Source: Methanosarcina sp. 2.H.T.1A.6 (lineage in GTDB: Archaea > Halobacteriota > Methanosarcinia > Methanosarcinales > Methanosarcinaceae). Taken from it: a DNA stretch of 64,000 bases. Both the position numbers and the translations under genes were made by a program. The stretch spans positions 124,001 through 188,000 of the forward strand of contig NZ_JJOY01000023.1 of NCBI RefSeq assembly GCF_000979455.1, in the 5' to 3' direction. Below are positions 9,869 through 27,607 of the stretch, piece after piece. The notes under the pieces are model-generated. The model was not told the origin of the DNA. It searched no databases and saw only the letters and a program-made list of their open reading frames with translations. The first letter of the stretch is position 1. Each line of letters starts with the position of its first letter.

Positions 9869-10558
9869 ATGGACTCTTCTACGTTGACTGTTATTGGAAT
9901 TTTAATAGGTATCCTTATCTTCGGGATTAAAACTGGATTAGGTTGTGGATTTTCAAATATCACTAAGAGAGAAATTCTTACAATTGCTGGCAGTTACTTT
10001 TTTCTTGCCCTTTTATTCGGAAGCGTTGCTGACCACATAAGCCTGGATGCCTTTGAGCGTCTTTCTGCAATGGGTATGGGAGTTCATGTTCTTGTCTCCC
10101 TGCTCCTTATAGGGGCCGGGATTTACACCCAGAAAAAGTGGAATTCAGGAAAAGATGTTTCCAGACACACTTTTCTGGCTATATCCATGCCCTGTCCGGT
10201 CTGCCTGGGGGCACTTGCGGTATCCTGTATGCTGCTTTCAGAAAGTCTCAACTTTTCCGGGATAAAAATAGGGCTTCTTGTAGGAATTGCTTTTTTTACT
10301 GCAGTGGTAGCTTCTTCTTTTCTTTTCAGGTTTGGGAAGACCCGGCTGGGAAAGACTCCCGAAACTATGGGAAGCGCCATGATGCTTCTCGGAATTTATT
10401 ATCTTCTTGGAGCTCTGCTCATCCCTGCATATATGAAAACAAAACAGATGAACTTAGCTCCTATGGCTCCGGGAGAATCAGGCATTGTTCCCCTTCTGGC
10501 TTTTGGGGTCTTAGTCCTTGCAGGTTTTTTTCTCGGCCATGTGAGGTCTAACCAATGA
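9869..10558 (+). CDS. DUF2162 putative membrane transporter
   Basis: The 229-residue protein is mostly hydrophobic, with about six or seven membrane helices and glycine-rich turns. It carries a CPVCLGALAVSC motif near residue 110, whose cysteines could bind a metal or form a disulfide. It matches my recollection of the DUF2162 family, which in methanogens occurs with MotA/TolQ/ExbB and DUF2149 genes and with CobN-like genes, as here. Its stop overlaps the next start by four bases (ATGA), showing coupling. The transported substrate is unknown; a metal or cofactor fits the neighbourhood. ATG 9869 follows an agaaggt ribosome site. Confidence 0.75.
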   Translation: MDSSTLTVIGILIGILIFGIKTGLGCGFSNITKREILTIAGSYFFLALLFGSVADHISLDAFERLSAMGMGVHVLVSLLLIGAGIYTQKKWNSGKDVSRHTFLAISMPCPVCLGALAVSCMLLSESLNFSGIKIGLLVGIAFFTAVVASSFLFRFGKTRLGKTPETMGSAMMLLGIYYLLGALLIPAYMKTKQMNLAPMAPGESGIVPLLAFGVLVLAGFFLGHVRSNQ

Positions 10559-11184
10559 GCAATATGGATTTGTTATCACAGACGATGTACATATTTTCAT
10601 CGGCTCTGCTGTATCCGGTAATGATACTTCTGACCATCCTTGTCTTTGTTTCACTTATTCAATTAGGAGAATTCCTTTCTGAATATTCGAAAAGGAACAG
10701 GGACCGTAACACCCTGGAAATCGGTTGCAAAAAAATACGGGACAGTCTTCCTAATTCAGCTTTTTCGGAAGCATCAAGGGCTCTTGAGAGTCTAAAACAA
10801 AATTACATGGTCACATCCTTTGCAAAAGAGGCTGCAAAATACCTCGAAGAGCAGAATTTTCCTGCAATCGAGAAGCTCTCTGAGGAATATGAGATTAAAA
10901 TGGCAAAACGCCTTGAAAACACGAAGATCAGTTCAACGGTTGCCCCTATGCTCGGACTTATGGGAACGCTTATTCCGCTGGGACCTGCCCTGATAGGGCT
11001 TTCGCAAGGAGACCTCGAAACCCTGGCACAAAACCTGATGATTGCCTTTGCAACTACCGTCGTAGGGCTCTTTTCTGCCGGAATAGCCTATGTGCTTACC
11101 CAGGTCAGGAGGCGCTGGTACTGGGAGGATATGTCGGACATCGATTATATTCTGGATATACTCGAGGAGAAAAGCGGAAATTGA
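10555..11184 (+). CDS. MotA/TolQ/ExbB-family proton channel protein
   Basis: A 209-residue protein with three membrane segments: about residues 7-35, 122-147 (SSTVAPMLGLMGTLIPLGPAL) and 155-182 (NLMIAFATTVVGLFSAGIAYV). The two C-terminal helices carry the family motifs APMLGLMGT and ATTVVG, which line the proton path in ExbB/TolQ/MotA. The cytoplasmic loop lies between helices 1 and 2, as in ExbB. Known members use the proton gradient to do mechanical work with an ExbD/TolR/MotB partner. The partner here is most likely the DUF2149 product encoded 25 bases downstream. The start overlaps the DUF2162 stop (ATGA). Confidence 0.92.
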   Translation: MSNMDLLSQTMYIFSSALLYPVMILLTILVFVSLIQLGEFLSEYSKRNRDRNTLEIGCKKIRDSLPNSAFSEASRALESLKQNYMVTSFAKEAAKYLEEQNFPAIEKLSEEYEIKMAKRLENTKISSTVAPMLGLMGTLIPLGPALIGLSQGDLETLAQNLMIAFATTVVGLFSAGIAYVLTQVRRRWYWEDMSDIDYILDILEEKSGN

Positions 11185-11209
11185 TTGCTTTCTTAATAGG
11201 AGGAAAACC

Positions 11210-11605
11210 ATGCGAAAATCCAGACGGTACAGGCGAACCGGGCTTTTAAATGATTCCGATGAGCAAAACCCCATGACCGGGGTTGCCAATCTCTTTGACG
11301 TTGCAATGGTCTTTTCCGTGGCTCTGCTGGTAGCCCTTGTGATGTCTTACCATCTTCCTGAGCTTCTTAGCTCGAATGAGGATATTACAATTGTAAAAAA
11401 TCCGGGAGCTGAGGATATGAAGATAATCATCAAGGACCAGGGGAAGCCCATAGAAGTCCTGAATATGACCGAAAACATCGGTGGAGGCACAGGGGAAGCT
11501 CTGGGGACGGCATATAAGCTGGCTGACGGCAGGGTGATTTACGTCCCTGAAGATTCGGAGGGTAATGGTACCTCCACCTCTACTGATTCCTCCGCCTCCG
11601 TTTAA
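11210..11605 (+). CDS. DUF2149 protein, ExbD/TolR-like partner of the proton channel
   Basis: The true start is ATG 11210 behind a perfect aggagg ribosome site, giving 131 residues. A short basic N-terminus (RKSRRYRR) precedes a single membrane helix at about residues 27-50, NLFDVAMVFSVALLVALV. Asp30 sits at the cytoplasmic end of that helix, where ExbD and TolR have their essential proton-carrying Asp. The rest (about 55-131) is outside the membrane and ends in a Ser/Thr-rich tail. Size, topology and position after the ExbB-like gene support an ExbD-like role. DUF2149 has no proven function that I know of; the functional assignment is inference. Confidence 0.8.
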   Translation: MRKSRRYRRTGLLNDSDEQNPMTGVANLFDVAMVFSVALLVALVMSYHLPELLSSNEDITIVKNPGAEDMKIIIKDQGKPIEVLNMTENIGGGTGEALGTAYKLADGRVIYVPEDSEGNGTSTSTDSSASV

Positions 11606-11627
11606 TTTTTTTCAACAATTAACGCAA

Positions 11628-11702
11628 ATTTTATTTGTAGTGGTCTGCATTGGTGGGATTTATCTAGGAGTCAGGAATCAGAAGTTTTTATTTCGTATGT
11701 GA
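11628..11702 (+). pseudogene. Fossil 3' end of a CobN-like gene
   Basis: Just after the DUF2149 stop, one frame reads ILFVVVCIGGIYLGVRNQKF before a stop at 11700. This closely matches the membrane anchor that ends the three CobN-like proteins (VLFVVAAVGGIYLGFRKKKF). The DNA after it, up to a tgccgtattttttc tract, also resembles the DNA after the first CobN-like gene. No start or body of such a gene is present. The simplest reading is that a CobN-like gene once lay directly behind DUF2149 and was deleted except for its tail. Confidence 0.75.
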
Positions 11703-11897: not shown

Positions 11898-12149
11898 ATT
11901 TGTTCCTTAATGCTCCGAACGTTACTCTCTCAAAACAGAATCGGCTGCTCATTATTTTTTAAATGTTCTGGAGTGAATTAAATCTCAGAACAAAGCTTCA
12001 CTCCAACTTTTCAAATTTTAAGGCTGTTTCTGTACAAGTTCCTATATTAAAAAACTTTCAACTAATATTTGTACTGTGAACTCATCATCCTGTTATTTTT
12101 TCTTCGGGGATGTTCCAGAGTTCATGAAATATTGTCTGGGGATATCACA

Positions 12150-15100
12150 TTGAATAAATATACAATGTCATTAATTTTAGTTCTATTGTTGTTATTAACA
12201 AACGTTGTATCGGCAGATGAACAGGAAATAAACATTACTAACAGTACCAATGATTCTTTGGGCTTAACAGTTACGGAAGTTTTAGGTACTGGAAATACCT
12301 CTGTTAACGAATCTTCAGGTTCTCATATCGCGAGCACAAAACCAAAAATAGCTTATGTATTATCAAGACCTTACGACGTTACATTGATGGAAAAGGTGGC
12401 AGCATATCCTGAAATAAGTTCACAAATGGATATACGCGTCTATCTTGGGACTTCATATTCAGATCTAAGTTTTGATCTTAGTGATAGGGATATGGTCGTT
12501 TTGTCAAATTTGGATTCTTCTGTAACTGAGACCATTGTGCCAACAGTAAACAATGCTAAAACAAATGGTGCATATGTTATTTCGCTTGGTGATACTCTTG
12601 AAGCATATGGGCTTCATAACGTAAATACGTCCGCTCCAGAGTACTCATACATTAATCAATATTTACAGTACGTGTCAGAAACAAATTTCTATCGTTTCAA
12701 TACTTTCATTGGAACAACGTTCTTAGGGCTGAATTATTCAATCGAGGCTCCTCTCGAAAGGCCAATATATGGTATTTATAATCCCGTCGCACCTCAAATA
12801 TATGAAAACCTCACCGATTATCTGGCATGGTACGATGCAAGTGGTATCTACAATCCCGAAAACCCCACAATTGCCATAATAATTGACAGTTATAAATATG
12901 TGGAAAGGGACATGCCTCTCCTTGACGCCCTGGTCGGGGAAATCGAAGGAAAAGGATACAACTCGATTGTGGCAACATATGCTTACAAAGATAACAAGTC
13001 CATGAGTTATCTGATGCTGGATAATAAGTCTATTGCAGATGCTGCTATTGTAATCTCCCGTGGCTCACGCCTAAACTATTCTGATAACGAGCAGGGAATT
13101 GCCGATCTACAGACGCTGAACATCACAGTCCTTAACGGGATTCGCCTGTTTTCAGGAGTGAGTGTGGAAGAGTGGGAAAATAGTATCCAGGGAGTGCCAG
13201 CCGACCAGCAGTACCAGGTAGCATATGCAGAACTTGACGGGATGATCGAGCCCATAGTCATTAGTGGTAAAGCCACAGATGAAACAACCGGAGTCGAATA
13301 CAACCTGCCAATAGAATATCAGGTGGATTGGCTGGTTGACAGGGCAATAGCATGGGCTGAATTACATGAGAAAGCTAATTCCGAGAAAAAGATAGTAATT
13401 CCTTACTATAATCCCGAAGGCGGTAAAGCTGATGTGGGGGCAGATATTGACTATTACCTTGATGCACAGGCGAGCCTTGCAAAACTGCTTGAAGCCATGA
13501 AAGAACGTGGATATAATGTTGGCAATGCCCCTCTTCCAAATGCTACTGAAATTGCAGCACTGATGGTGGAAAGAGGACATAACGTCGGCAACTGGGCCCC
13601 CGGAGAACTTGAGAAATGTGTTGAAAACGGCAGTACAATACTCATCCCCGAATCCCATTACATGGAATGGTTCAAAGAACTCCCGCAGGACAAACAGGAT
13701 GAAATGACATCTATGTGGGGAGAGGCACCTGGTGACATTATGGTCTATGAGAATTCCACAGGCAAATATCTGGTCATACCGGTGCTTCAATTCGGTAATG
13801 TAATTCTTGTACCCGACCCGCAGCATGGATGGTCTTCAAGTGAGAAAACATTGTATAACAATGCATCTTATCCACCCACCCACCAGTGCTTTGCTTTCTA
13901 TAAGTATATGTCCAGAGAATACAAGGCCGATGCCCTGTTCACGATATTCTCAAGTGTGGAACTGATGCCCGGAAAAGAATGTGGACTTTCCGCAAAGGAT
14001 TGGGGGGCTCTTTTGCTTGAAGACATGCCTCATGTCCATGTTCTTCCAATGGATGCCGAAGGTGTATTTGACAGAAGGAGAGCAAACATGCTCATCATTG
14101 ATTTCATGACGCCTACAATAGTGCCTGCAGGTCTCTACGGGGATTTTGCCAACCTGCAACAGGAGATTACCTTATTTAAACAGGCTTCTGACAGTGCGGT
14201 GAAAGAGAATTACAGGAAGGATATAATTAACCATACAAGGAATCTCAACCTTGACAATGACCTGAATGTTAGTCTTGACTCAATTGCAGGTGATACAAAC
14301 CTTACGGATGCTTTCATTGATGATCTTGCAGATTACCTTTACGAATTGAAGACCTCTTACATGCCTTATGGTTCTCACATACTTGGCGAAGTACCGGAAG
14401 GTGAAAGCCTTGTTATGCTCATAAAAAGCATGTTAGGGGATGAGTATGTAGAACATGTCGAAGCACTTGGAGGAAACGGGGAACTTTCAATCTCACTTTT
14501 GAACGAGACTCTCTCGAACGGAACGTCTCCTCACGATGCACAAATAATGTTGCTTGGTCGGAACTCTACAGAACTCAGCAACGACCTTGATCTTTCATTA
14601 GAATATCTTGAAAGGATACAGCAATGTGATTGCGAGATTACAAAGATACTTGATGCACTTGATGGCACATATATCATCCCCGGACCTTCCGGAGACCCTA
14701 TCAGGAATCCGGATGCTTTGCCAACTGGCAGGAACCTGTACACATTTGATGACAGGCTCATCCCGACAAAAGCAGCATGGGATGTTGGGTCACAGCTTGC
14801 AGAAGAGATGCTAAAGCTAAAACTTGAAGAGGATGGCCAGTATCCTGAAAAGGTGGCTTTCCTATTGTGGTCTGTCGAAACCACAAGAAACCAGGGTGTT
14901 ATGGAATCCGAGATATTCAAACTCCTGGGAGTTGAACCTGAGTATGATAATAAGAACAGGGTGACAGACCTGAAGCTCATCGATTCTAAGGAACTCGGAA
15001 GACCAAGGATTGATGTGATGGTAGTTACCTCGGGTCTTTACCGGGATGTTTATCCAAGCAAGATCGAACTCATAGATAAGGCTGTAAGGATGGCAGCTGC

Positions 15101-16409
15101 TGCAGATAATGATACATATCCCAATTATGTAAGAATACATTCTGATGCAGTATACCAGAGCCTTATTGCAAAAGGATACAATGAGTCACTTGCATACAAC
15201 CTGTCAGTTTCAAAGATATTCTGTCCGCCGCCCGGAGGATACACACCAGGTATTCAGGAAGCTATCACCAGTGATACATGGGAAGATGCAGACAAAATTG
15301 CGGGTCTATACATTGACAGGATGGGATATCTCTATGGGCAGGAGACATGGGGAGAACATTATTCCGATGTATTTGAACTGAACCTTGCAAACGTTGATAC
15401 TGCAATTTTTAGCAGGACTTCTAACCTTTACGGTGTACTTGATCACCCAATGGTAGCTGCCTATTTTGGTGGCTTGAGCATGGCAATTGAAAAGGTTAGT
15501 GGTACTGCACCTGATATGTATATTAACGATCTTAGCAGTTCAGCAGAAATTGAAACCCTTAACGAGTTCCTTTGTAAGGATTTGCGTTCACGTTATTTAA
15601 ATCCAAACTGGATAGAAGGAATGATGGGGAACGGATTTGATGGTACGAGATATATGGATTCGGTCTTTGAGGTCATGCGCGTATGGGACGTAACAAATCC
15701 GGATCTTGTTACCGATGGTATGTGGGATGAGATGTATGATACATATTTCATGGACAAGTATGATACCGGTGTTACTGAGTTCCTTAAATCTACAAACCCA
15801 TATGCTTACCAGTCAATGACTGCTACAGCATTAGATTCTATTCGTACAAGCTACTGGGATGCTTCTGACGAGGTTACAAAAAGCCTTGTTAAAGAATATG
15901 TGGAATCCGTGGTTAAAGATGGTGTTACATGCTGTCACCACACTTGTGGGAATGCCCTGCTTAATGAATACGTTCAGGGTGTAATGTCCGTTCCAGGTGT
16001 TGTTGACCAGGCAACTGCAGACGAATATAAGAGATTGATGCAGGAAGCAACTGAATCTTCCCAGCCGCAGTCCGGTGAGAGCAGCAGCCACAGCAGTAAA
16101 GGTCACCAGACGAGTGTTGCCGAAAAACTCAACCAGACTGCTAAAGAGAACACTGAAGAATCAGCCAGCAACCAGACTGTTCAGAATTTCGATGCAGGTT
16201 ATGGAACAAATTCCCCTGAACCTGCTCCAGACATCCAACAAGTTGCAGATTCCAGTTATGTGGAAGGCTACGAGATGCAGAAAGAAGATCCTGTAAAGGA
16301 AGAAGAAAGTGGAGGTATGTCTTTCTCTGGTACTGATATTTTCGGAGTTCTCTTCGTAGTAGCAGCAGTTGGTGGAATCTATCTCGGATTCAGGAAAAAG
16401 AAGTTTTAA
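12150..16409 (+). CDS. CobN-like surface-anchored protein, paralogue 1 (metal-motif histidines lost)
   Basis: I place the start at TTG 12150, behind tctgggga and equivalent to the start of paralogue 2. This gives 1419 residues with a signal peptide ending VVSADEQ. The body is CobN/magnesium-chelatase H-like throughout: YQVDWLVDRAIAWAEL, DPIRNPDALPTGRNLYTFD, LGRPRIDVMVVTSGLYRDVYP and SNLYGVLDHPMVAAYFGGL. CCHHTCGN is at about residue 1261. The last 25 residues are a membrane anchor (IFGVLFVVAAVGGIYLGF), so the bulk should lie outside the cell. Where the paralogues and true CobN have H-x-G-x-HG-x-x-EWLPG, this copy reads TIFSSVELMPG (about residue 595). All histidines are gone and two residues are missing. 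The ATPase partners of true CobN are absent nearby. It may be a binding rather than chelating protein. Confidence 0.88.
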   Translation: MNKYTMSLILVLLLLLTNVVSADEQEINITNSTNDSLGLTVTEVLGTGNTSVNESSGSHIASTKPKIAYVLSRPYDVTLMEKVAAYPEISSQMDIRVYLGTSYSDLSFDLSDRDMVVLSNLDSSVTETIVPTVNNAKTNGAYVISLGDTLEAYGLHNVNTSAPEYSYINQYLQYVSETNFYRFNTFIGTTFLGLNYSIEAPLERPIYGIYNPVAPQIYENLTDYLAWYDASGIYNPENPTIAIIIDSYKYVERDMPLLDALVGEIEGKGYNSIVATYAYKDNKSMSYLMLDNKSIADAAIVISRGSRLNYSDNEQGIADLQTLNITVLNGIRLFSGVSVEEWENSIQGVPADQQYQVAYAELDGMIEPIVISGKATDETTGVEYNLPIEYQVDWLVDRAIAWAELHEKANSEKKIVIPYYNPEGGKADVGADIDYYLDAQASLAKLLEAMKERGYNVGNAPLPNATEIAALMVERGHNVGNWAPGELEKCVENGSTILIPESHYMEWFKELPQDKQDEMTSMWGEAPGDIMVYENSTGKYLVIPVLQFGNVILVPDPQHGWSSSEKTLYNNASYPPTHQCFAFYKYMSREYKADALFTIFSSVELMPGKECGLSAKDWGALLLEDMPHVHVLPMDAEGVFDRRRANMLIIDFMTPTIVPAGLYGDFANLQQEITLFKQASDSAVKENYRKDIINHTRNLNLDNDLNVSLDSIAGDTNLTDAFIDDLADYLYELKTSYMPYGSHILGEVPEGESLVMLIKSMLGDEYVEHVEALGGNGELSISLLNETLSNGTSPHDAQIMLLGRNSTELSNDLDLSLEYLERIQQCDCEITKILDALDGTYIIPGPSGDPIRNPDALPTGRNLYTFDDRLIPTKAAWDVGSQLAEEMLKLKLEEDGQYPEKVAFLLWSVETTRNQGVMESEIFKLLGVEPEYDNKNRVTDLKLIDSKELGRPRIDVMVVTSGLYRDVYPSKIELIDKAVRMAAAADNDTYPNYVRIHSDAVYQSLIAKGYNESLAYNLSVSKIFCPPPGGYTPGIQEAITSDTWEDADKIAGLYIDRMGYLYGQETWGEHYSDVFELNLANVDTAIFSRTSNLYGVLDHPMVAAYFGGLSMAIEKVSGTAPDMYINDLSSSAEIETLNEFLCKDLRSRYLNPNWIEGMMGNGFDGTRYMDSVFEVMRVWDVTNPDLVTDGMWDEMYDTYFMDKYDTGVTEFLKSTNPYAYQSMTATALDSIRTSYWDASDEVTKSLVKEYVESVVKDGVTCCHHTCGNALLNEYVQGVMSVPGVVDQATADEYKRLMQEATESSQPQSGESSSHSSKGHQTSVAEKLNQTAKENTEESASNQTVQNFDAGYGTNSPEPAPDIQQVADSSYVEGYEMQKEDPVKEEESGGMSFSGTDIFGVLFVVAAVGGIYLGFRKKKF

Positions 16410-16702
16410 ATCTCCCGTGAAACGCGGAGTGACATAATAACGCCGTATTTTTTTATGGGGTAAAAGTATCTACTTAGTATGAAAGTATGTGAGATTCTCT
16501 TCCTCACATATTTTCATGCGGTTATAGTGGCTAATAAATCATATGAAGCTTTATTGCACCCACTTTGACTTCTGTAAATATCACGATTATTTACAATATA
16601 ACGGCTAACATGTATAATATTTGGCAAATGGGAAAACAAATTCTACATCTACGTACATCTGCGGAATATGGATTCCTTGATCTTTTTTTCTACATATTTT
16701 AA

Positions 16703-17274
16703 ACCCTATCCCGCATATTTTCTTTATTGGGGATGCTCGGGATGGGGCTTCTGGACTATATGGTCGAGCACATCCATATGGACACCCTTCCTGATGGGAA
16801 CGCTCTTCACATAAGTAAAAACCGTAATCTTCGGAAAACCGGCTTGTTGACGGCAGTTGGGATTGCCATGCACAATTTTCCAGAAGGAATTGCAGTTCGG
16901 TTTTCATCCCTCAGTTCAACTTATCTGGGTTTTTCGGTTGCTGTAGTCATAGCAATCCATAACATTCCTGAAGGGGTTGCAGTTTCGATCCCTATCTACT
17001 GTGCCAGCGTCAACCGGAAAAAAGCCTTTGCTTATTCTTTCTTTGCAGGGCCCACTGAACCTCTGGGAGCGGGGATCGGATATTTTTTCTTTTCCGCTTC
17101 CTGACTCCAGAAGTACTCTTCCTCATGCTTGCTGCAGTCGGCGGGGGCGTGGTCTTTATATGTTTTGATACACTGTTGCCTCTCGCTATAAAGTCTGGAT
17201 ATGAACATCTGATTTTTTTGGGGGTGTTTTCGGGCATGGGTGTGGTTGCCCTGAGCCTCTATTTTATGTATTGA
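16703..17274 (+). pseudogene. Decayed ZIP-family metal transporter (ZupT-like)
   Basis: The frame from 16703 reads LDYMVEHIHMD, then IAMHNFPEGIAV, IAIHNIPEGVAVSIPIY and FFAGPTEPLGAGIGY. These include both histidine-bearing membrane motifs of ZIP zinc/iron permeases. Near 17090 the frame breaks; the continuation LTPEVLFLMLAAVGGG ... FSGMGVVALSLYFMY is in another frame and ends at 17272-17274. The N-terminal helices are missing and no start is evident. It lies between the first and second CobN-like genes, in the metal-related neighbourhood. I consider it non-functional because of both the truncation and the frameshift. Confidence 0.8.
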
Positions 17275-17300
17275 GATTTTTTAACCTTTTTACCAGAAAG

Positions 17301-17337
17301 GCTAATAATTGTGAGCCAAAAACCGTTTTTTATGTAT
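17301..17337 (+). promoter_or_regulatory. Palindrome plus TATA-like element, copy B
   Basis: GCTAATAATTGTGAGC followed by CAAAAACCG and TTTTTTATGTAT, the clearest copy of the shared element. It precedes only a 37-codon ORF at 17455, and the DNA between them is a shortened version of the CobN-like leader. Confidence 0.6.
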
Positions 17338-17454
17338 CTTATCCTCTTACTCTCCAGCGTTGAAGCTCTCAAAACAGACTCGATAGCTCCTTATTCCTGG
17401 TTATTATTTTCTCCCGGGTGCTCAGGGTTCATGATATCTTTTCAGGAGATAAAA

Positions 17455-17568: not shown

Positions 17569-17763
17569 ACTACTCCCGCCTTAGAGTTCAAATTTGTATT
17601 TAAGGACCGGCGTAAAACAATAAGTGTCATATATTTTCTTTTCTCGGGTAAAATATATCACTTTTTTAGAAAATCATTTCAGTTCTGATTTTCTCCCTAA
17701 TTCAGGGCTAATTTTGCTCAAATTATTACAAAAATACTATCTTCTCCCCATTTTACCCGGATG

Positions 17764-17800
17764 GCTAACAATCGTGAGCTAAAAACCGCGTTTTATGTAT
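17764..17800 (+). promoter_or_regulatory. Palindrome plus TATA-like element, copy C, before second CobN-like gene
   Basis: GCTAACAATCGTGAGC, then TAAAAACCGCG and TTTTATGTAT, 291 bases before ATG 18055. Spacing and sequence match copy A, and the intervening leader is shared with paralogue 1. Confidence 0.6.
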
Positions 17801-18054
17801 GTTATTCCCTAATTCTCCGAATGTTGAAGATATAATACGGAATCGGCGGCTCAGTATTTTTTTGAGGGTCTGGGGTTGAATTCTAAGTCCGAATCGATAA
17901 CTTCCACGGTCACTTTAAAAATTATACGGCTGTTTTCCTGTAAGTTCCTAATATTTGCAAACTTTTACTCAAAAATCAACTAGTAATCCAGGCATCCTGG
18001 TTATTTTTCTGCCGGGGTGCTCCAGGGGTTCATGATACATTGTCTGGGGATAAG

Positions 18055-21000
18055 ATGCGTACGTCACAAAGTAGGTTACTGGTTTTATGTGCAGTTGTCC
18101 TTTTACTACTTGCACAGAACGTATCGGCTGATGAAAATCAGGTAAATATTACTTTTATCTGTTATGATGGAAATGCTTTGAATGCAGCAGAGCAGTCCAA
18201 TCCGTACAATGCAAGTATAAATGTAACATACATTTCGGCTTATTCCAACTTTACTAATACCACTTTTGAAAACCAGGATGTAATATTTACTTATATGCTC
18301 TGGTCTCAGTTCAAAGATATCGGGGATGACCTCGAAAGTGCTCATAAAAATGGGGCTGCACTTATAGATATCACCTCTATGATGGATCCGACATACATCA
18401 ACACCTCAAGTTATGACCTGATCCTTCCCGGGATCAAGCCTTATAATTCCACTGAAGAAAAGTACTTCTACAGCATGGGTCCGAAAGGAGTCCTGCGAGA
18501 AAATACTGAAAATTTCCTTATCTATCTCGCAAAAAATTACGGGGATAAACCAGAGCTTACGGACAGCTGGGTTTACGATGACCCTATCGAATTCCCCGAA
18601 GCCGCGCTCTATCATCCGGACGCTCGCTCCTCTTTGAATGAGTCGGAGCCTGACTGGTTTGAAAACACCACGGATTACCTTGAGTGGTACTCTAACTCAG
18701 ACAGCATAAACGAGTCCCATCATGTTTACGATAAGAGCAAACCCACCATCGGGATCTGGTTCCATGCCTCCGATTATACGGCCGGCAACCTTGAGGTCAT
18801 AGACTACCTTATCCGTGACCTTGAAGGAAAGGGCTGCAACGTAATTGCAGGTTTTGAGACCTTTAATGATATCCACAAGTTTTACTTTGACGAAAACGGA
18901 GAGCCTCTTGTCCAGTGCGTAATTTCTCTTAAAAGTTTCCGTTTGAATTACGAGGACCCTGAGAAAGGGATACAGGAGCTTGAAGACCTTGATGTTCCGG
19001 TCTTAAGAGGCATGGTGGTCTCAAATCCTGCAAGTTCTATAGATGTAGCTGATCGCAACAGGGGCATTCCCAGCAGTGAGGTTGTGTACAAGACTCTGCT
19101 TCCTAGCATTGACGGGATTTTTGAGTACATTGTAATAGGGATTGATAATTACGACTCCGAAACCGGAGAAAGCAGCTACGAGCCCCTGCCATATCAGGTT
19201 GATTGGATGGTCAACAGGTCGATCAGCTGGGCTGAACTGAAGTTAACGGATAACGAGGACAAGAAAGTCGCGGTAATATACTACAACTACCCTTCAGGAA
19301 AAGACAACATTGGGGCAAGTTACCTTAACACCACCCAGAGCATGTTTGATCTTCTCAATGAGATGAATGAAACCGGGTATGAAGTCTCCGGAATTCCGGA
19401 TAACAGCAGTGCACTTCTGGAAATGATGCAGGCACAGGGTATCAATGCCGGCTCCTGGGCTCCGGGTGTCATGAATGAAATGGTCGAAAACAGGACTGAA
19501 TGGGGACTGCACCTCATACCCATGGAAACCTACAAAGAGTGGTTTGAGTCCGAAATTCCGGAGGATCTGAGGTCTCAGGTAATAGAGGAGTGGGGATCGC
19601 CCTGGGCTGAAGATCTTCCTCAGAATAAGAGCCTCATGATCTATGAGAATGAAACCGGAAAGTATATTGTAATCCCTTCCGTACGTTTCGGAGATGTCTG
19701 GCTCATGCCCCAGCCTGCCAGAGGTTTCCTGCAAAACGATGACACTCTTTACCACAGTAGCCTTGTGCCACCTCCGCACCAGTACATAGCTTTCTACCTC
19801 TGGCTGAACCATGAATGGCAGCCTGATGCAATCATTCACATGGGGACCCACGGTACGCATGAATGGCTTCCGGGCGCTACTTACGGTATGAACCGGACTT
19901 CCGATTGGGCGCCTTTACTGCTGCAGGACCTGCCAAACATCTATCCTTACATAGTTGCAAATGTGGGAGAAGGGCTGACCGCCGAGTACAGGGGCAATGC
20001 CCTGATTATCGACCACCTGACTCCAACCCTTGAACGCAGCGGGCTTTATGGGGAATTGCTCAACCTTTCAATCAGTGTGGAGCAGTATTATGATCCTGGA
20101 ATTTCTGCACAGACAAAGGCAGGGTACCAGACAGCCATAATCGACCAGATAATCGCACTTAACCTGGACGTTGACCTGGGAATCGAGAATGCGACTGCGC
20201 TTCGGGACTATAATGAAGTGGAGTTTACTTCTTTTGTAAAAGATGTCCTGCACGAGTATCTGGAAGATGTGGGAAACGAAAACATTCCTTATGGAATGCA
20301 TATCCTTGGCCAGGTGCCCTCAACAAATCTTACAGACCCTGAGAAAGACGAACTTTCCGGAATGGTAAGGTCCATGCTTGGAGGAGACTTCGAGGATAAC
20401 ATCACTGCTGCCTTCTATCCGGAATCCGTTTACCCTCTCGGGATTCCGTCAAATGATACGAAAGTTAACAGGCTTGTCTGGGAAGTCGTGACCAATAATA
20501 CGGAGGTTTCCAGGGCTCAGCTTGACGTTTACGGGAAAACCGACAGTTCTGTTACATTTGACCTTGAACAGGGTCTGGTCTACAGAGACAGGCTTCTTTC
20601 CAGTGATGTGGAAATTGCCAGAATTCTTTCAGCCTTAAACGGAGGTTTCATTCCTCCGGGACCGGGCACGGACCCCATAATGAATCCTGATGCAGCACCT
20701 ACGGGGCGCAACTTCTACGGCATCAACTCAAAACTCTATCCTTCAAAGGCGACCTGGGAACTTGGAAAATCCCTTGCAATCCAGCTGCTTGAGGACTACC
20801 ACGCTCAGTATGGGGAGTATCCGGAAAAGGTTTCATTCTCAAGGTTCGGGGTAGAGTTTATTCGCGACCACGGGACTCTGGAAGCCGAAGTGCTCTATAT
20901 GCTCGGGGTACAGCCGGTCTGGGACGAGTACGGGTATGTAAAAGGTGTTGAAGCTATCCCTGAAGAGGAGCTGCTGCCTAACTACGACCCGGCAAAGCCT

Positions 21001-22392
21001 GGAAGGCCAAGGATTGACGTTGTATATACAACCGCGGGTATGAGGGACGCTTTCCCGGATAAGATCAAAATGGTAGATCGCGCCGTGAAACTTGCAAGTT
21101 CACTTCCTGCCGGAAACTATCCCAACTACGTAAACGACAGCACCCTTGCAATATATGATTCCCTGATTGCAGCAGGATATGACAGCGAGACCGCAAAAAA
21201 GCTCTCTACAATGCGCTGCTTTGCAGTAATGGATGGGACTTATGAAATAGGGGTCTCAAACGCTATCAGTGCAAGTGGGAGCTGGGATGACGAAGAGACG
21301 ATTGCAAATGTATACCTGGACAAGATGGGATACGCTTACGGGGAAGATTTCTGGGGTATAAAATCCAGGGAACTTCTTGAAGGCAACCTGAAAAACGTTG
21401 AAGCCTCCGTACATTCGGACTCTTCAAACCTCTACGATACTCTTGATAATGACGACTTCTTCCAGTACTTCGGTGGCCTGAACCTGGCAACAAGGCATGT
21501 CAGAGGAGACGGAAGAACTCCCGAGATGTACGTTTCGGATACCAGAGACCCTGAAAGGGCTCAGATGACAGGAATGGGTGAGTACCTGAGCAAGAACCTG
21601 AGGTCCAGGTATTTCAATGAGAAGTGGATCGAAGGGATGCAGGGCGCCGGGTATTCAGGCGGCAGGATGATGTCCGAGTTCGTAAACAACCTTTTCGGCT
21701 GGGAGGTCAGCGATCCTGATCTTGTGGACGACAGCGTCTGGGAGCAGACATATAATACCTATGTTAATGACCCTGCCATGAAAGAATGGTTCAAGCAGAA
21801 CAATCCAGATGCTTACCAGTCGATTACGGCAAGGATGCTTGAATCTGTCAGGCACGGATACTGGAAACCTTCGGACGAGGTTATCAATAATCTCGCAAAA
21901 GAATACGAAGAATCGGTAGCTGAAAACGGAGCTTCCTGCTGCCACCATACCTGCGGAAACCCCCTGCTTAACGAATTCGTAAGCGGGATGGTATCTGTCC
22001 CTGGCTACGCTGAAAAACTGAATGCAGCAACCCAGGCCGAAACTCAGGAAATCGAAGAGACTTCAGGCAGCAGCAGTAGCAGCAAAGGACATCAGACGAG
22101 TGTTGCCGAAAAACTCAACCAGACAACCAGCTCAAACTCCGAATCCGCGGAAAGCAACCAGACTGTTCAGGATTCAGATGCAGGGTATGGCGTTGATTCT
22201 CCAGAAACTGTTCCTGATGTCCAAAAGGCCTCTGACTCCGATTATGTTGAAGGCTATGAGATGCAGAAAGATCCGGTCGCAGAATCCGAAAATGGAGGGA
22301 TGTCCTTCTCGGGATCTGATATTTTCGGGATTCTCTTCGTGATTGTAGCAGTGGGGGGAATTTACCTGGGATTCCGTAAAAAGAATATGTAA
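18055..22392 (+). CDS. CobN-like surface-anchored protein, paralogue 2
   Basis: A 1445-residue protein starting at ATG 18055 behind tctgggga; a TTG at 18040 is possible but less likely. A signal peptide (LLVLCAVVLLLLAQNVSADE) is followed by the CobN-like body with YQVDWMVNRSISWAEL and the metal-site motif HMGTHGTHEWLPG at about residue 595. DPIMNPDAAPTGRNFYGI, PGRPRIDVVYTTAGMRD and SNLYDTLDNDDFFQYFGGLN follow. ASCCHHTCGNPLLN is at about residue 1295. A disordered stalk with KGHQTSVAEKLNQT, DAGYG and YVEGYEM leads to an anchor ending YLGFRKKNM. True CobN inserts cobalt into hydrogenobyrinate diamide with CobS/CobT in the cytoplasm. A secreted, anchored version without these partners must work differently; metal or corrinoid handling at the surface is inferred. 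Confidence 0.9.
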   Translation: MRTSQSRLLVLCAVVLLLLAQNVSADENQVNITFICYDGNALNAAEQSNPYNASINVTYISAYSNFTNTTFENQDVIFTYMLWSQFKDIGDDLESAHKNGAALIDITSMMDPTYINTSSYDLILPGIKPYNSTEEKYFYSMGPKGVLRENTENFLIYLAKNYGDKPELTDSWVYDDPIEFPEAALYHPDARSSLNESEPDWFENTTDYLEWYSNSDSINESHHVYDKSKPTIGIWFHASDYTAGNLEVIDYLIRDLEGKGCNVIAGFETFNDIHKFYFDENGEPLVQCVISLKSFRLNYEDPEKGIQELEDLDVPVLRGMVVSNPASSIDVADRNRGIPSSEVVYKTLLPSIDGIFEYIVIGIDNYDSETGESSYEPLPYQVDWMVNRSISWAELKLTDNEDKKVAVIYYNYPSGKDNIGASYLNTTQSMFDLLNEMNETGYEVSGIPDNSSALLEMMQAQGINAGSWAPGVMNEMVENRTEWGLHLIPMETYKEWFESEIPEDLRSQVIEEWGSPWAEDLPQNKSLMIYENETGKYIVIPSVRFGDVWLMPQPARGFLQNDDTLYHSSLVPPPHQYIAFYLWLNHEWQPDAIIHMGTHGTHEWLPGATYGMNRTSDWAPLLLQDLPNIYPYIVANVGEGLTAEYRGNALIIDHLTPTLERSGLYGELLNLSISVEQYYDPGISAQTKAGYQTAIIDQIIALNLDVDLGIENATALRDYNEVEFTSFVKDVLHEYLEDVGNENIPYGMHILGQVPSTNLTDPEKDELSGMVRSMLGGDFEDNITAAFYPESVYPLGIPSNDTKVNRLVWEVVTNNTEVSRAQLDVYGKTDSSVTFDLEQGLVYRDRLLSSDVEIARILSALNGGFIPPGPGTDPIMNPDAAPTGRNFYGINSKLYPSKATWELGKSLAIQLLEDYHAQYGEYPEKVSFSRFGVEFIRDHGTLEAEVLYMLGVQPVWDEYGYVKGVEAIPEEELLPNYDPAKPGRPRIDVVYTTAGMRDAFPDKIKMVDRAVKLASSLPAGNYPNYVNDSTLAIYDSLIAAGYDSETAKKLSTMRCFAVMDGTYEIGVSNAISASGSWDDEETIANVYLDKMGYAYGEDFWGIKSRELLEGNLKNVEASVHSDSSNLYDTLDNDDFFQYFGGLNLATRHVRGDGRTPEMYVSDTRDPERAQMTGMGEYLSKNLRSRYFNEKWIEGMQGAGYSGGRMMSEFVNNLFGWEVSDPDLVDDSVWEQTYNTYVNDPAMKEWFKQNNPDAYQSITARMLESVRHGYWKPSDEVINNLAKEYEESVAENGASCCHHTCGNPLLNEFVSGMVSVPGYAEKLNAATQAETQEIEETSGSSSSSKGHQTSVAEKLNQTTSSNSESAESNQTVQDSDAGYGVDSPETVPDVQKASDSDYVEGYEMQKDPVAESENGGMSFSGSDIFGILFVIVAVGGIYLGFRKKNM

Positions 22393-22453
22393 AATACGAT
22401 GGAAGGAGAGCACTTTTCATTCTGTGTTCTTTTCCTTTCCTTTTTTAACCCTC

Positions 22454-22517
22454 TTTTTTATTCTCTTCCTTTTTTATTCTCTTCCTTTTTTATTCTCTTC
22501 CTTTTTTATTCTCTTCC
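22454..22517. repeat. 16-bp pyrimidine tandem repeat, four copies
   Basis: TTTTTTATTCTCTTCC repeats four times without error, with partial copies on both sides, about 60 bases after the stop of paralogue 2. The T-runs could also act in transcription termination. Confidence 0.9.
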
Positions 22518-22695
22518 TTTTTTCAACTCTTTTTTGGGAAAGACCGCTCTTCTGCATCGGGCGTTACATGAATGACATGATAAAGCGAATGACGTTGCAC
22601 TGATTAAAATATTTGTAATTTTAATTCTCTTTTAAATAATGTCCAATATGTAACGGTGGGCGATCGGTAATTTCTCTATTTTTGTTATCTATATG

Positions 22696-22734: not shown

Positions 22735-22737
22735 GTA

Positions 22738-22883: not shown

Positions 22884-23053
22884 TTGTTGTTGATTTGCGG
22901 TGTACTTTTATTTCTCTGTAGATCTGATTTGCCTTGTCTGCCGGCGGAGATCTAAAGCTGAAATTTAGGAGTTTCCTGCAAGCAGCATACAGAATCAAGA
23001 TCTTAATACTTTTTTTATACAGTAATATATTTATTTATTCAGGAGTAGGGATT

Positions 23054-26000
23054 ATGAAAGAACAGTTGAATAACAAAAGAAACCCTCTTAATGAAAGAAT
23101 TAAAGCTTCCGGATTGATAATTTTAATCCTTTTAATGCTGTTTTCTACTTCTCCGGCAGCAGGAAGTGAAGCCATCCAGTATGAACTTGTTGCCAACACT
23201 ACCAGTGATGCTGAAGGCAACTACCTTCTTTCCGGGATTCCCGACGGAAACTATACGCTTGTTGCTCTTTACAACGAGGACAAATGGCGCCGTGCCGATG
23301 AACAAATTCAGGTTCAGGGCACGGATCTTTCGGTAAATCTTGATACCTCAAGCAGGGATATCGATGCAAATGAATCCCAGGCTCTTCTTGACCTTCCTGG
23401 CAGTGGGGTTGACCTGACGGGGAGTGCTGCAATCAGCGGGCTTACCCGGCAGAAAAAGATGGGAGGCGATCCTATATCTCTGGGGTTCACAAACGTTCTT
23501 TTGTTAAGGGAAGTGGTAAAAGAACCCCAGGGCAACTCCAGCACAGGCCAGCATCTGGACATTGCTATCGTGACCGGGTACCGGAGCCATGAGCTTCCAC
23601 TCAAGAACCTTGCAGAGGAGGTCAACACTAACAGCGGCCTGAACCTTTCTCTTAGTTGTTTTATGGCTGACTACGTGATGGAAAATAACGTTGACCTGAG
23701 CGGGATGGACATCATTTACATCAACATGCTCAGCCCCTCAACGGCCCAGAAGCTCACACCCACTGTGGATATGGCGATTGCTAACGGGTGTGTGGTTATT
23801 GACGATGACACTCTTCTGAATGAGAGCATCCCGCTTTCTGCAGACCAGATCGAGGGCTACAGGGAAAAGCTGAACAATTACTGGCTTAATGGGGCTTATG
23901 ACCAGAGCAACCTGAAAAACCTTGTATTCTGCATCGCCAACGACTGCTGCGGCAGGTCTGACCTCCTGTATGAGGACCCTCACGCTCTTCCTGAAAGGGC
24001 GATCTACCACACTAATATGACCGGTTACTTTACCGATTCTCTGGATACCTACCTTGCCTGGTACTCTAACAGAAATGATGGAGGGCACATCTACGATCCG
24101 GCCAAGCCCACTGTTGCAATTACCATGTACCAGAGCTATTTCCCCTTCCAGATTGAGCCTATAGATGCTTTGATTTCAGAACTGGAAGCCAGGGGCTACA
24201 ATGTTATTGCAACTTACGGGTCCGATTCCCTTTCCTCTGGGGACTTTTTCAAGCAGGGGGATGATGTCCTTGTGGATGCGATTATTTCGTTTACTTACTT
24301 TGGCAACAAGTTTGATGCTGAAGGGCTCGATGTGCCTGTAATCAACGGCATTGTTAACAATTACATGAACAGGACCGAGTATGAAGCCAGTAGCAATCCG
24401 CTTCCTGCAGATAAGATGATGAAACTCGATTTGCAGGAACTCTGGGGGGCTATTGACCCGGTAATAATGGCTTCAACGGAACTGGACGCTGAGACCGAGA
24501 CCGAAGTGTCAGTTTCCATAGACTATCAGGTGGACTGGCTCGTTGACCGCGTCGAAAGCTGGGTGAATTTAGGGGAAATTCCGGAATCCGATAAAAAAGT
24601 TGCTATAATTTATTATAACCACGGAGGGGGAAAGGATAACATAGGGGCTTCCTATCTCGATGTCGTCCCCAGCATATCCAGCCTGCTTGGCGCTATGGCT
24701 GCCGACGGATATGACCTGAATGAAAGCCAGGTCCCTAACCAGACCGAACTCCTTGACCTGATGCTTACTCAGGGTATCAACATAGGGACCTGGGCTCCGG
24801 GGGAACTTCAGAAACTGGTTGATACAGGCAAAATAGTTCTCGTCCCGGAAAGCACCTATGAGGGATGGTTCTCTGAGCTCCCTCAAGAGAGGCAGCAGAA
24901 GGTCATTGATCAATGGGGGCCGGCACCCGGGAAGATCATGGTCTGGGAAAACGAAAGTGGAAAATATCTCGTAATTCCCAGAATCGAGGTCGGAGATAAT
25001 GTGCTTCTGGCTCCACAGCCTTCAAGAGGCTGGCTTGATGACAATAATGCTCTCTATCACGACAAGGACCTGCCTCCTCACCACCAGTACATTGCATTCT
25101 ACTTATGGCTTCAGCATTCTGAGGAAGAAGGTGGATTCGGCAGTAATGCCCTGGTTCACTTTGGCAGGCACGGGACTCAGGAATGGCTGCCTGGCAAACA
25201 GTTCGGACTTTCGCGGTATGACTGGCCTTCCCTTATGATCGGGGATTTGCCCGTGATTTATCCTTACGTTATGGACGGGCTTGGAGAAGGCAATGAGGCA
25301 AAGCGCAGAGGAGGTGCAGTCATCGTTGACCATCTTGTTCCCCCGATTATTTCAGCAGGAAGTTATGGGGATTACGCAAACCTGAGTACAGCTATCCAGA
25401 ACTATGAACAGGCAGTGGCAGACGACTCTTTGAAATCAGCCCACAGGTCTGAAGTTTTAAACCTGACCCGGTCCCTTCACCTGGATGAAGAGTTCAACAT
25501 GACAGAGGCTGAAAACAACGAGAATTACTTTAATACAACTTTCCTGGAAGGGCTCGAAGCCCTGCTGGATGATTATAAGAGCCAGTCAATGCCTTACGGG
25601 CTGCATATCCTGGGCACAAGCCCTAAAGGGGAGCAGCTTGTGGGTATGGTAAATTCAATGCTAGGCACTGATTTTGCTGATTCTGTTCACAAATTCAATG
25701 AAACCGAAGGTGCCCAACTCTATCTGCTGGACCTGGTCCTGAACCGGGGGGTCAATTCCACGGATGCTCAGATGCAGGTGCTCGGGACAGGCAGTGAAAC
25801 CGTCGCTAACTTCCTTGCCAGCGCGGAAGAATATGCTGCAAACCTGGCTCTTGGGGAGGAGGAAATCTCTCAGGTCCTCAATGCCCTGGACGGCAGGTTC
25901 ATCCCCGGAAACCTGGGAGGTGACCCTGTTAGAAACCCTGAAACTCTGCCTTCGGGAAGAAATTTCTATGCTTTTGACCAGCGGATAGTGCCAACAGAAG

Positions 26001-27607
26001 CTGCCTGGACTCTCGGGCAGGAGATGGCTGATCAGATGCTTGATGCCTATGTTGCCGAGCATGGGACATACCCGAAAAAGGTAGCTTACATTCTCTGGGC
26101 CGGCGAAACCACAAGGCACGAAGGAGTTATGGAGGCAGAGATTCTCTACCTGCTGGGGGTCAAGCCTGTATGGAAAAGTGGCAGGGTAGTTGATGTGGAA
26201 GCTATTCCCATGGAGACCCTTGGAAGGCCCAGAGTTGATGTGGTGATTCAGATCTCAGGCCTTTACAGGGATATGTACCCTGGCAAGGTGCTCCTGCTGG
26301 ACAAAGCCGTAAAGCTGGCTTATGCCCAGGAAGATTCTCCCAACTATGTCCGGGAAAATGCTGAAGCTCTGAAAGCCTCTTTGATGAGTGAAGGTTCCCT
26401 GAATGAAAGTGATGCCCTGGACCTGGCCCTGCTAAGGATTTTCGGGTCTTCGGACGGAGCCTACGGTACAGGTCTTCCCAATGCGATCGCTGCAAGCGAT
26501 ACCTGGGAGAGCAACGATGTGCTGGCAGACCTTTACATCAGCAAGATGTGCAACGCCTACGGAGAAAACGTCTGGGGCGAAAACCTGAGGGGCCTTTTCG
26601 AAAAGAACCTCGCAGGTGTTGAAGCCACAGTGCACAGCCGGAGCACGAACCTCTACGGGACTCTGGACAATGATGATTTCTTCCAGTACATGGGAGGCCT
26701 GAATCTCGCAGTCAGCTCTGTTTCGGGAGGAAAGTATCCGGATTCTTTTATCACGAACATGCTGACCGGAGGAGATGAGAAGGTCGAAACTCTGGGACAG
26801 TTTCTCGCAAGGGAAACTTATTCCCGTTATTTCAATCCGAAATGGATTGACGGTATGCAGGGGAATGGCTATGCAGGAGCCAGGGAAATGGCAGACTTCA
26901 TTGAGAACCTCTGGGGCTGGGAAGCCACAAACCCTGATTTGATCAGCGATGAAATGTGGGATCAGGTGTATCAGACATATATGGCAGACCAGGAGCTTCG
27001 CGAATGGACCCGGCAGAATAATCCCTATGCATACCAATCCATGACAGCCAGGATGCTGGAAACTGCTCGCAAGGGCAACTGGGATGCTTCGGATGAGGCC
27101 CTTGAAAGCCTGGCCGCGGAATATGCAGAGTCTGTGGTCGAAGATGGGGTCACCTGCTGCCACCATACCTGCGGAAATCCCCTCCTCAACGGCTACGTAT
27201 CGGGCCTGGTTTCTGTGCCCGGTTTCAGTGAAGCAATAGAACAGGCTACACAGGAATCTCTTAAACAGGAAGTGCCTGAAAAACACAGCAGCAGCAAAGG
27301 GCATCAGACGAGTGTTGCCGAAAAACTCAACCAGACTGTTAAATCAAACACTGAAGAGCCTGTCAGCAATCCAGCTGTTGTGGAGAATGATGCCGGTTAT
27401 GGAGTGGATTCTCCTGAACCTGCCCCAGAGGCGAAAACTTCTTCCGACTCTGATTATGTTGAAGGCTATGAGATGAAGAAAGAGTCTGTTGAGAACGAGG
27501 AGGATGGGGGAGGTATGTCTTTCTCCGGTGCCGACGTTTTCGGGATCATTTTCGTGCTTGTAGCAGCCGGTGGGATCTACCTGGGGATGCGGAAGAAGAA
27601 TATGTAA
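23054..27607 (+). CDS. CobN-like surface-anchored protein, paralogue 3, with N-terminal beta-sandwich remnant
   Basis: A 1517-residue protein starting at ATG 23054 behind aggagtaggg. Signal peptide residues about 18-37 are followed by a short carboxypeptidase-regulatory-like segment (DAEGNYLLSGIPDGNYTLVALY, about 45-75) not present in the other two paralogues. It seems to lack its first strands. The CobN-like body contains HFGRHGTQEWLPG at about residue 702, DPVRNPETLPSGRNFYAFD, AGETTRHEGVMEAEILYLLGV, LGRPRVDVVIQISGLYRDMYP and SNLYGTLDNDDFFQYMGGLN. VTCCHHTCGNPLLN is at about residue 1368. The stalk motifs and anchor match those of the other paralogues. Of the three it is closest to the ordinary CobN motif set, so it is the best candidate for a working metal site. 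A strong hairpin terminator follows. Confidence 0.9.
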   Translation: MKEQLNNKRNPLNERIKASGLIILILLMLFSTSPAAGSEAIQYELVANTTSDAEGNYLLSGIPDGNYTLVALYNEDKWRRADEQIQVQGTDLSVNLDTSSRDIDANESQALLDLPGSGVDLTGSAAISGLTRQKKMGGDPISLGFTNVLLLREVVKEPQGNSSTGQHLDIAIVTGYRSHELPLKNLAEEVNTNSGLNLSLSCFMADYVMENNVDLSGMDIIYINMLSPSTAQKLTPTVDMAIANGCVVIDDDTLLNESIPLSADQIEGYREKLNNYWLNGAYDQSNLKNLVFCIANDCCGRSDLLYEDPHALPERAIYHTNMTGYFTDSLDTYLAWYSNRNDGGHIYDPAKPTVAITMYQSYFPFQIEPIDALISELEARGYNVIATYGSDSLSSGDFFKQGDDVLVDAIISFTYFGNKFDAEGLDVPVINGIVNNYMNRTEYEASSNPLPADKMMKLDLQELWGAIDPVIMASTELDAETETEVSVSIDYQVDWLVDRVESWVNLGEIPESDKKVAIIYYNHGGGKDNIGASYLDVVPSISSLLGAMAADGYDLNESQVPNQTELLDLMLTQGINIGTWAPGELQKLVDTGKIVLVPESTYEGWFSELPQERQQKVIDQWGPAPGKIMVWENESGKYLVIPRIEVGDNVLLAPQPSRGWLDDNNALYHDKDLPPHHQYIAFYLWLQHSEEEGGFGSNALVHFGRHGTQEWLPGKQFGLSRYDWPSLMIGDLPVIYPYVMDGLGEGNEAKRRGGAVIVDHLVPPIISAGSYGDYANLSTAIQNYEQAVADDSLKSAHRSEVLNLTRSLHLDEEFNMTEAENNENYFNTTFLEGLEALLDDYKSQSMPYGLHILGTSPKGEQLVGMVNSMLGTDFADSVHKFNETEGAQLYLLDLVLNRGVNSTDAQMQVLGTGSETVANFLASAEEYAANLALGEEEISQVLNALDGRFIPGNLGGDPVRNPETLPSGRNFYAFDQRIVPTEAAWTLGQEMADQMLDAYVAEHGTYPKKVAYILWAGETTRHEGVMEAEILYLLGVKPVWKSGRVVDVEAIPMETLGRPRVDVVIQISGLYRDMYPGKVLLLDKAVKLAYAQEDSPNYVRENAEALKASLMSEGSLNESDALDLALLRIFGSSDGAYGTGLPNAIAASDTWESNDVLADLYISKMCNAYGENVWGENLRGLFEKNLAGVEATVHSRSTNLYGTLDNDDFFQYMGGLNLAVSSVSGGKYPDSFITNMLTGGDEKVETLGQFLARETYSRYFNPKWIDGMQGNGYAGAREMADFIENLWGWEATNPDLISDEMWDQVYQTYMADQELREWTRQNNPYAYQSMTARMLETARKGNWDASDEALESLAAEYAESVVEDGVTCCHHTCGNPLLNGYVSGLVSVPGFSEAIEQATQESLKQEVPEKHSSSKGHQTSVAEKLNQTVKSNTEEPVSNPAVVENDAGYGVDSPEPAPEAKTSSDSDYVEGYEMKKESVENEEDGGGMSFSGADVFGIIFVLVAAGGIYLGMRKKNM

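Follow-up and report, generated by a model that had tools for sequence, protein, structure and literature searches.

Exported CobN-like proteins in described systems and in Methanosarcina

Exported CobN-like proteins were reportedly proposed by Rodionov in 2003 as a third CobN type, BtuS. Here we describe a gene cluster in a 64,000-nucleotide stretch of Methanosarcina sp. 2.H.T.1A.6 (contig NZ_JJOY01000023.1, positions 124,001 to 188,000; hereafter the window) that encodes a DUF2162 membrane protein, an ExbB/TolQ-like channel protein, a DUF2149 protein and three CobN-like proteins, and we observe that CobN-like proteins of this kind, predicted to be exported and linked to ExbB and DUF2149, form a class apart from cytoplasmic, ATPase-linked CobN and ChlH proteins. 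BtuS, too, is a CobN-like protein that is exported, attached to the membrane and separate from CobN and ChlH, but it has been described for bacteria and heme iron, and PMC6460266 proposes for it neither a motor partner nor a box of the type reported below. In the hmuYRSTUV operon of Bacteroidota, HmuS, which takes iron out of heme (PMC12583661), is encoded with a putative permease (HmuT), an ExbB-like protein (HmuU) and a DUF2149 protein (HmuV) (PMC10434189, PMC12583661, PMC13227078). According to the HmuS authors, archaeal homologues are numerous and their use is unclear (PMC12583661).

The window cluster shares with hmuYRSTUV an operon of exported CobN-like, ExbB-like and DUF2149 genes, as well as its class in the CobN tree, and HmuS of Bacteroides thetaiotaomicron (PDB 9d26) is the best PDB match of CobN-like paralogue 3. 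Since the exported class includes HmuS, the exported kind of CobN is already known from bacteria (BtuS/HmuS), a kinship that an earlier sequence-only reading of this DNA had missed. In contrast to hmuYRSTUV, the window cluster consists of DUF2162, ExbB, DUF2149 and CobN-like genes only, in that order, with no HmuY hemophore and no TonB-dependent outer-membrane receptor, and HmuT, considered as a DUF2162 homologue, proved not convincingly related (hhalign probability of at most 30%, cysteine motifs not in common). The same four genes in the same order, with a CCDHTC motif and a VEGFEM box, lie among B12 genes on pSZ77 (pGLOV01) of Trichlorobacter lovleyi (PMC3403914). This bacterium differs in having two membranes, TonB receptors and, next to the module, an exbB-exbD-tonB set of its own. 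Furthermore, PA1922-PA1925 of Pseudomonas aeruginosa include CobN-like, Exb-type and DUF2149 genes, but these belong to the Zur (zinc) regulon, and the energy genes are assigned to a TonB-dependent receptor (PMC9431628).

CobN-like proteins fall into two classes

In the window, closely spaced DUF2162, ExbB-like and DUF2149 frames beginning at 9869 are followed by three CobN-like proteins of about 1450-1560 residues each, all of which match almost the entire length of the PF02514 model (large subunit of CobN/ChlH class I chelatases) and have an N-terminal hydrophobic segment as well as a C-terminal hydrophobic helix followed by basic residues (Table 1). Paralogue 3 carries an extra N-terminal Ig-like segment (weak CarboxypepD_reg match). 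The PF01618 score of the ExbB-like protein lies above the family cut-off, and the DUF2149 protein is 98% identical in a Methanosarcina metagenome-assembled genome. The sequence-only reading had described these parts, three CobN-like proteins with N-terminal signals and C-terminal anchors next to a DUF2162, ExbB/TolQ-like and DUF2149 operon; all were recovered in place with Pfam matches, so that its genomic part is confirmed, its interpretation being partly supported. Its statement that ATPase partners are missing nearby holds for the window, where phmmer with the genome's own ChlI-ChlD fusion as query found no ChlI/ChlD-type ATPase, but the same 4.07-Mb genome has an ATPase-linked CobN elsewhere. 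This fourth CobN (another contig, ~1285 residues, no signal segment, no anchor) has a ChlI-ChlD-type AAA+/VWA protein ~6 kb away and ECF-type transporter genes, read by eye, on the other side. The organism thus has both CobN kinds, one cytoplasmic with an ATPase and three exported without.

Of 295 genomes sampled across the phylum, 93 contain DUF2149, and we analyzed ~80 DUF2149 loci from this sample (mostly 20 kb each; labels L followed by three digits). Co-occurrence was counted outward from these loci because a PF02514 scan of the phylum scored just two candidates per genome. The gene order DUF2162-ExbB-DUF2149-CobN recurs across loci of methanogen and anaerobic methanotrophic (ANME) families, with DUF2162 accompanying 68/82 ExbB-DUF2149 pairs and a CobN gene lying within 6 kb of 63/82, against roughly 2% by chance on our own estimate (few CobN genes per genome, placed randomly). 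Among complete ExbB/DUF2149-linked CobN open reading frames (ORFs), 68/73 combine a hydrophobic segment at the N-terminus with a helix at the C-terminus, whereas 0/14 ATPase-linked CobN proteins have either, export being predicted from hydrophobic segments alone. In addition, the CobN-ExbB-DUF2149 core is found in Bacteroidota, Thermodesulfobacteriota, Planctomycetota and Pseudomonadota, indicating that the linkage extends far past the Methanosarcina lineage and into bacteria. A lack of co-occurrence outside this lineage, named in the sequence-only reading as a ground for its refutation, is thus not what the genomes show.

We rebuilt the CobN tree on catalytic-core segments (mixture model, quick search, Shimodaira-Hasegawa-like approximate likelihood ratio test support) because the C-terminal tail columns included in an earlier tree are tied to the trait; both trees give the same split. 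The exported/ExbB-linked proteins (archaeal, bacterial and HmuS) lie on one side of a single branch with support 100, and all cytoplasmic proteins (archaeal, alphaproteobacterial CobN and ChlH) on the other, the trait amounting to one change. In one archaeal family (L101, L109), three proteins are encoded near ExbB-DUF2149, yet look cytoplasmic and group with the ATPase class; they were labelled cytoplasmic for the core tree on the basis of topology, tree position and, in L101, an AAA+-type ORF after one of them. We regard the architecture, the linkage and the two-class split as practically certain. CobNST cobaltochelatase and ChlHID magnesium chelatase have a homologous large subunit and the same motor-assisted chelatase logic, but they are cytoplasmic, work with an ATP-driven AAA+/VWA partner and belong to the other tree class. 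The idea of an ion motor in place of the ATP motor, put forward in the sequence-only reading, holds in so far as ExbB/DUF2149 occupies the genomic place of the AAA+/VWA ATPase; by analogy with the ExbB family, the ion used would be the proton.

Some further variation was observed among these proteins. In one branch of the archaeal cytoplasmic CobN proteins, a CCC triplet (GCCCYFGTHGG) stands in place of the DSDD found in the active-site loop of cobaltochelatases (L035:6059-9916 as well as L124, L126, L128, L130-L132, L134, L135 and L137), and a different metal or substrate is possible for this branch. Exported CobN-like ORFs of 2000-2500 residues, with N-terminal or internal extensions, occur at L048:10334-17788 and other loci. 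A long tandem repeat of EVINS units, whose other frames are also kept open, forms the end of an ABC ATPase ORF at L035:2448-4364 (minus strand).

Active-site motifs, a juxtamembrane box and the partner proteins

The active-site motifs are kept in most exported CobN proteins, and the active-site loop of the archaeal ones, LDNDD(F/Y)FQY, is of the CobN type, unlike that of HmuS. The catalytic His motif HxG(T/K/R)HG is present in paralogues 2 and 3 and missing from paralogue 1, a correction to the sequence-only reading. Since the loss of both the His motif and the acidic loop is common to paralogue 1 and to five orthologues from two other archaeal families, paralogue 1 is best seen as a pseudo-chelatase of old standing that has been maintained, perhaps for binding or delivery. 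A CC[HD]HTC motif between body and anchor characterizes the exported proteins (61/75 vs 0/28 cytoplasmic ones) and was found in none of the HmuS proteins examined from Bacteroides and Prevotella.

Ahead of the C-terminal helix, in a linker that aligns poorly, we observe a box, [VIKT]xGxxM, which is a new observation of this study and is present in 113/130 exported CobN proteins, against 5.9 expected from shuffled linkers (the sequences are related, and the shuffles correct for composition only). DNA coding for VEGYEM occurs exactly three times in the window genome, once per exported CobN, and the reversed pattern was found in 0/61 genomes. Away from the operon, VEGYEM matches within the same family correspond to further exported CobN paralogues and to one unrelated ORF (L245), which we read as a chance match; no qualifying ORF was obtained from locus L246. 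Where ExbB-DUF2149 pairs lack an exported CobN, the box is found in 6 of 10 unrelated exported partners against 0.5 expected, a comparison resting on few partners and on a motif and partner list both picked by eye from the same data before testing. The box-bearing partners are beta-helix/CARDB proteins, with VEGKRM or VNGYPM, and a binding protein of the Peripla_BP_2 family, with VAGHPM, whereas 0/45 other exported, C-terminally anchored ORFs from the same loci carry the box. Furthermore, a GxP[MF] variant is confined to one DUF2149 clade (support 99) and spans two unrelated partner types, as would be expected of a box recognized by the DUF2149 outer domain; a caveat here is that the tails may have been exchanged as modules. 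Methanolobus and relatives (L052, L055, L058, L062, L168, L176, L183) have a second ExbB-DUF2149 pair that is accompanied by neither DUF2162 nor CobN and lies usually beside an ORF with an S-layer domain (PF07752 in L062); the tails of these S-layer-type ORFs are without the box, which is a caveat on the reading of the box.

The DUF2149 Asp, which the sequence-only reading had placed at the beginning of the helix, is invariant in 49/49 relatives and present in 24/25 members of a more diverse set, with Glu in Runella. In the predicted DUF2149 model, helix 21-48 is confident and the rest poor. DUF2162 has near-invariant cysteines in GCG and PCPxC and a predicted model of 8 helices (predicted local distance difference test score 86), for which a comparison with the PDB gave nothing significant; its permease role is accordingly putative. 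In many bacteria DUF2162 is missing or replaced and CobN is retained, and in Runella a weakly NicO-like protein fills its slot amid nickel-hydrogenase genes. Together with the doubtful kinship of HmuT, this suggests a constant core of CobN, ExbB and DUF2149 with an exchangeable permease.

The coordinates of the cluster are collected in Table 1. The ArsR-like regulator adjoins the operon in close relatives too (9 loci), and an Rfam scan of the window returned no riboswitch or other RNA family. A degenerate ZIP-family metal transporter gene, overlooked in the sequence-only reading, lies between CobN paralogues 1 and 2 (16600-17300, plus strand), its reading spanning two frames, with the C-terminal part of PF02535 matched in one of them (E 2e-16). 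The intergenic regions between the CobN genes contain an 80-nt direct repeat (17276-17355 and 17739-17818, 78% identity) as well as a tandem array of 16-nt pyrimidine-rich units (22437-22532).

Table 1. Features of the exported CobN cluster, in window coordinates
Feature	Position	Strand	Evidence or remark
ArsR-like winged-helix regulator, divergent, candidate regulator	8883..9398	-	PF01022 E 1e-9; NF033788 just under cut-off
DUF2162 membrane protein, candidate permease	9869..10558	+	PF09930 E 8e-73
ExbB/TolQ/MotA-family channel protein	10555..11184	+	PF01618 E 5e-12; PMLGLMGTLIP...TTVxGL block conserved
DUF2149, single transmembrane helix and small outer domain, candidate ExbD-like partner	11210..11605 (approximate)	+	PF09919 E 2e-34 to 9e-35
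Invariant Asp codon of DUF2149 helix	11297-11299	+	conserved column, 49 sequences
CobN-like paralogue 1, exported (predicted)	12069..16409, likely start near 12165	+	PF02514 E 3e-298; has lost the catalytic His motif and the acidic loop of the active site
CCHHTC motif, paralogue 1	15930..15947	+	
VEGYEM box ahead of C-terminal helix, paralogue 1	16260..16277	+	
CobN-like paralogue 2, exported (predicted)	18040..22392, likely start near 18055	+	PF02514 E 0; HMGTHGTHEWLPG and LDNDDFFQY present
CCHHTC motif, paralogue 2	21937..21954	+	
VEGYEM box, paralogue 2	22246..22263	+	
CobN-like paralogue 3, exported (predicted)	22934..27607, likely start near 23054	+	PF02514 E 0; active-site motifs present
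HFGRHGTQEWLPG motif, paralogue 3	25157..25195	+	equivalent to HmuS His-538 motif
CCHHTC motif, paralogue 3	27155..27172	+	
VEGYEM box, paralogue 3	27458..27475	+	

A putative ion-driven chelatase and its alternatives

In our best reading, the cluster would use protons to drive the removal of cobalt (or nickel) from tetrapyrroles outside the cell. The CobN-like bodies would stand outside the cytoplasmic membrane on their C-terminal helix and bind a metallo-tetrapyrrole, in archaea most likely a corrinoid and perhaps F430, whose metal they would release in the way HmuS acts on heme. The ExbB channel and DUF2149, as an ExbD-like partner, would use the ion gradient to do the conformational work of the ATPase, with DUF2149 docking on the VxGxxM box of the CobN tail just outside the membrane, and the freed ion may then pass from the CCHHTC site through DUF2162, or another permease, into the cell. 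We see an even balance for and against a module that acquires metal by means of an exported class I chelatase and is powered by an ion gradient through ExbB/DUF2149. As to its parts, we consider it likely that ExbB/DUF2149 acts on the exported CobN, and fairly likely that the metal is removed and taken up, rather than the whole cofactor being taken up or a metal inserted.

TonB reads the TonB box, and a comparable role of the box described here, as a possible docking site for DUF2149, seems to us as probable as its absence. With TonB-ExbB-ExbD and Tol-Pal the archaeal system shares an ExbB-family channel, a single-helix partner with a conserved Asp and a short client box near the membrane; it differs in that there is no outer membrane or TonB, the client is anchored in the same membrane and DUF2149 is unmatched to ExbD. 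The TonB-like arrangement suggested by the sequence-only reading has thus gained unforeseen support from the shared box, with docking itself being predicted. ExbB-DUF2149 most likely serves an exported protein, because archaea have no outer membrane, and so no outer-membrane receptor, because the second ExbB pair of Trichlorobacter probably has another job, a full exbB-exbD-tonB set adjoining it, because DUF2162 is dispensable while CobN stays, and because of the box.

Several observations weigh against our best reading. There is no CobN gene within 6 kb of 19/82 ExbB-DUF2149 pairs, a Pfam comparison of 25 DUF2149 members yields no ExbD match, the DUF2149 outer domain is poorly modelled, and paralogue 1 looks inactive. 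Furthermore, the archaeal proteins are without four features of HmuS: they have LDNDDFFQYMGG where HmuS has LSLDHxxEFMGG (His-1209; Bacteroidota relatives keep LSLDH), the heme ligands Met-79 and His-254 align with Leu and Tyr in paralogue 3, and about 50 residues stand in place of the Met-rich domain IV insertion, about 220 residues long and regarded as HmuS-defining (PMC12583661). Heme-type de-chelation is therefore not simply transferable to archaea; judged by these alignments, the archaeal exported CobN proteins are not HmuS. Heme is still a possible archaeal substrate, with the HmuS heme-ligand residues missing from the archaeal proteins. In addition, HmuS purified in a form lacking the membrane segments converted heme in vitro when NADH was supplied, an ExbB partner not being added, so motor power is inessential for that reaction (PMC12583661), and a Bacteroides fragilis btuS double mutant still freed protoporphyrin from heme (PMC6460266).

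Among the alternatives, the one that survives best, unlikely as we judge it, is uptake of the intact cofactor, in which the exported CobN would capture a whole corrinoid or tetrapyrrole and the motor would drive its handover to a membrane transporter with the metal kept in. It would account for a pseudo-chelatase such as paralogue 1, which kept the fold and lost the catalytic motif, and it is in line with the FecCD/BtuCD-like ABC genes, read by eye, that adjoin one ANME-type operon (L104) and with the box in a Peripla_BP_2-family binding protein beside ExbB-DUF2149. However, most exported proteins retain their active-site motifs, the CCHHTC motif and the cysteine-rich DUF2162 fit a free ion better, and the permease slot can hold a weakly NicO-like protein.

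A little less probable still is that the VxGxxM box serves anchored surface proteins as a signal for sorting, processing or membrane docking and is unrelated to DUF2149. The box has a placement resembling that of PGF-CTERM-type signals, which lie near the C-terminal anchor, and Methanosarcinaceae CobN tails have a second common motif right at the helix; its absence from the 45 other anchored ORFs of the same loci, its recurrence in bacterial members and a variant that tracks a DUF2149 clade across unrelated partners all speak against a general signal. We find it more doubtful again that the motor does not act on CobN at all, ExbB-DUF2149 energizing or gating DUF2162 or another transporter and CobN being a neighbouring metal source. 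The frequent company of DUF2162 fits this, as does the usual assignment of HmuU/HmuV to an outer-membrane receptor (PMC12583661), but archaea lack an outer membrane, bacteria that replaced or lost DUF2162 retain CobN, and the box sits in the tails of CobN and other exported partners. External metal insertion, by which the exported proteins would put a metal into a tetrapyrrole on the outer side of the membrane, the reaction that cytoplasmic CobN/ChlH carry out on the inner side, agrees with the CobN-type active-site loop but is very improbable, as there is no known need for a late step (archaeal B12 synthesis inserts early via CbiX; PMC7689651) and HmuS, of the same exported class, works in the removing direction.

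With respect to the metal, no neighbour of the window operon names one, the divergent regulator being ArsR-like. In ANME-1-type and Syntrophoarchaeum-type loci the operon lies amid CbiM, CbiQ, CbiO, CbiT, CbiL, CbiF, CbiD, CobB and CobQ genes, and these CbiM-to-CobQ neighbours of the ANME-1-type operons are cobalt-uptake and corrin-synthesis genes. On this basis, and with the window neighbours silent, cobalt is favoured in archaea, although we would not put its being the main metal above an even chance. Bacterial versions occur with heme-iron genes, B12 genes, nickel-hydrogenase maturation genes or a nikR neighbour. A NikR-like regulator seen by eye beside some ANME-type operons turned out to be just a weak ribbon-helix-helix family match, and for that reason we base no nickel claim on it. 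In a 2009 survey, Methanosarcina species had the largest sets of Co- and Ni-dependent proteins among archaea (PMC2667541).

These results place the archaeal HmuS/CobN/ChlH homologues in a genomic system and predict a partner and a contact site for them, and they suggest that the deepest split among class I chelatases is one of place and energy source, ATP inside and an ion gradient outside. The archaeal and Trichlorobacter loci argue against the assignment of HmuU/HmuV (PMC12583661) and PA1924/PA1925 (PMC9431628) to a TonB-dependent receptor as a general role. More tentatively, and somewhat short of an even chance, ExbB-DUF2149 could be a general TonB-like ion motor of cells with or without an outer membrane, reading the VxGxxM box in unrelated anchored surface proteins (exported CobN, the binding protein, beta-helix/CARDB giants) and replacing, in exported chelatases, the ATP motor of CobN/ChlH. 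If true, our best reading would mean a TonB-like energized surface system in single-membrane archaea and a possible route of cobalt or nickel recycling among methanogens and methane oxidizers.

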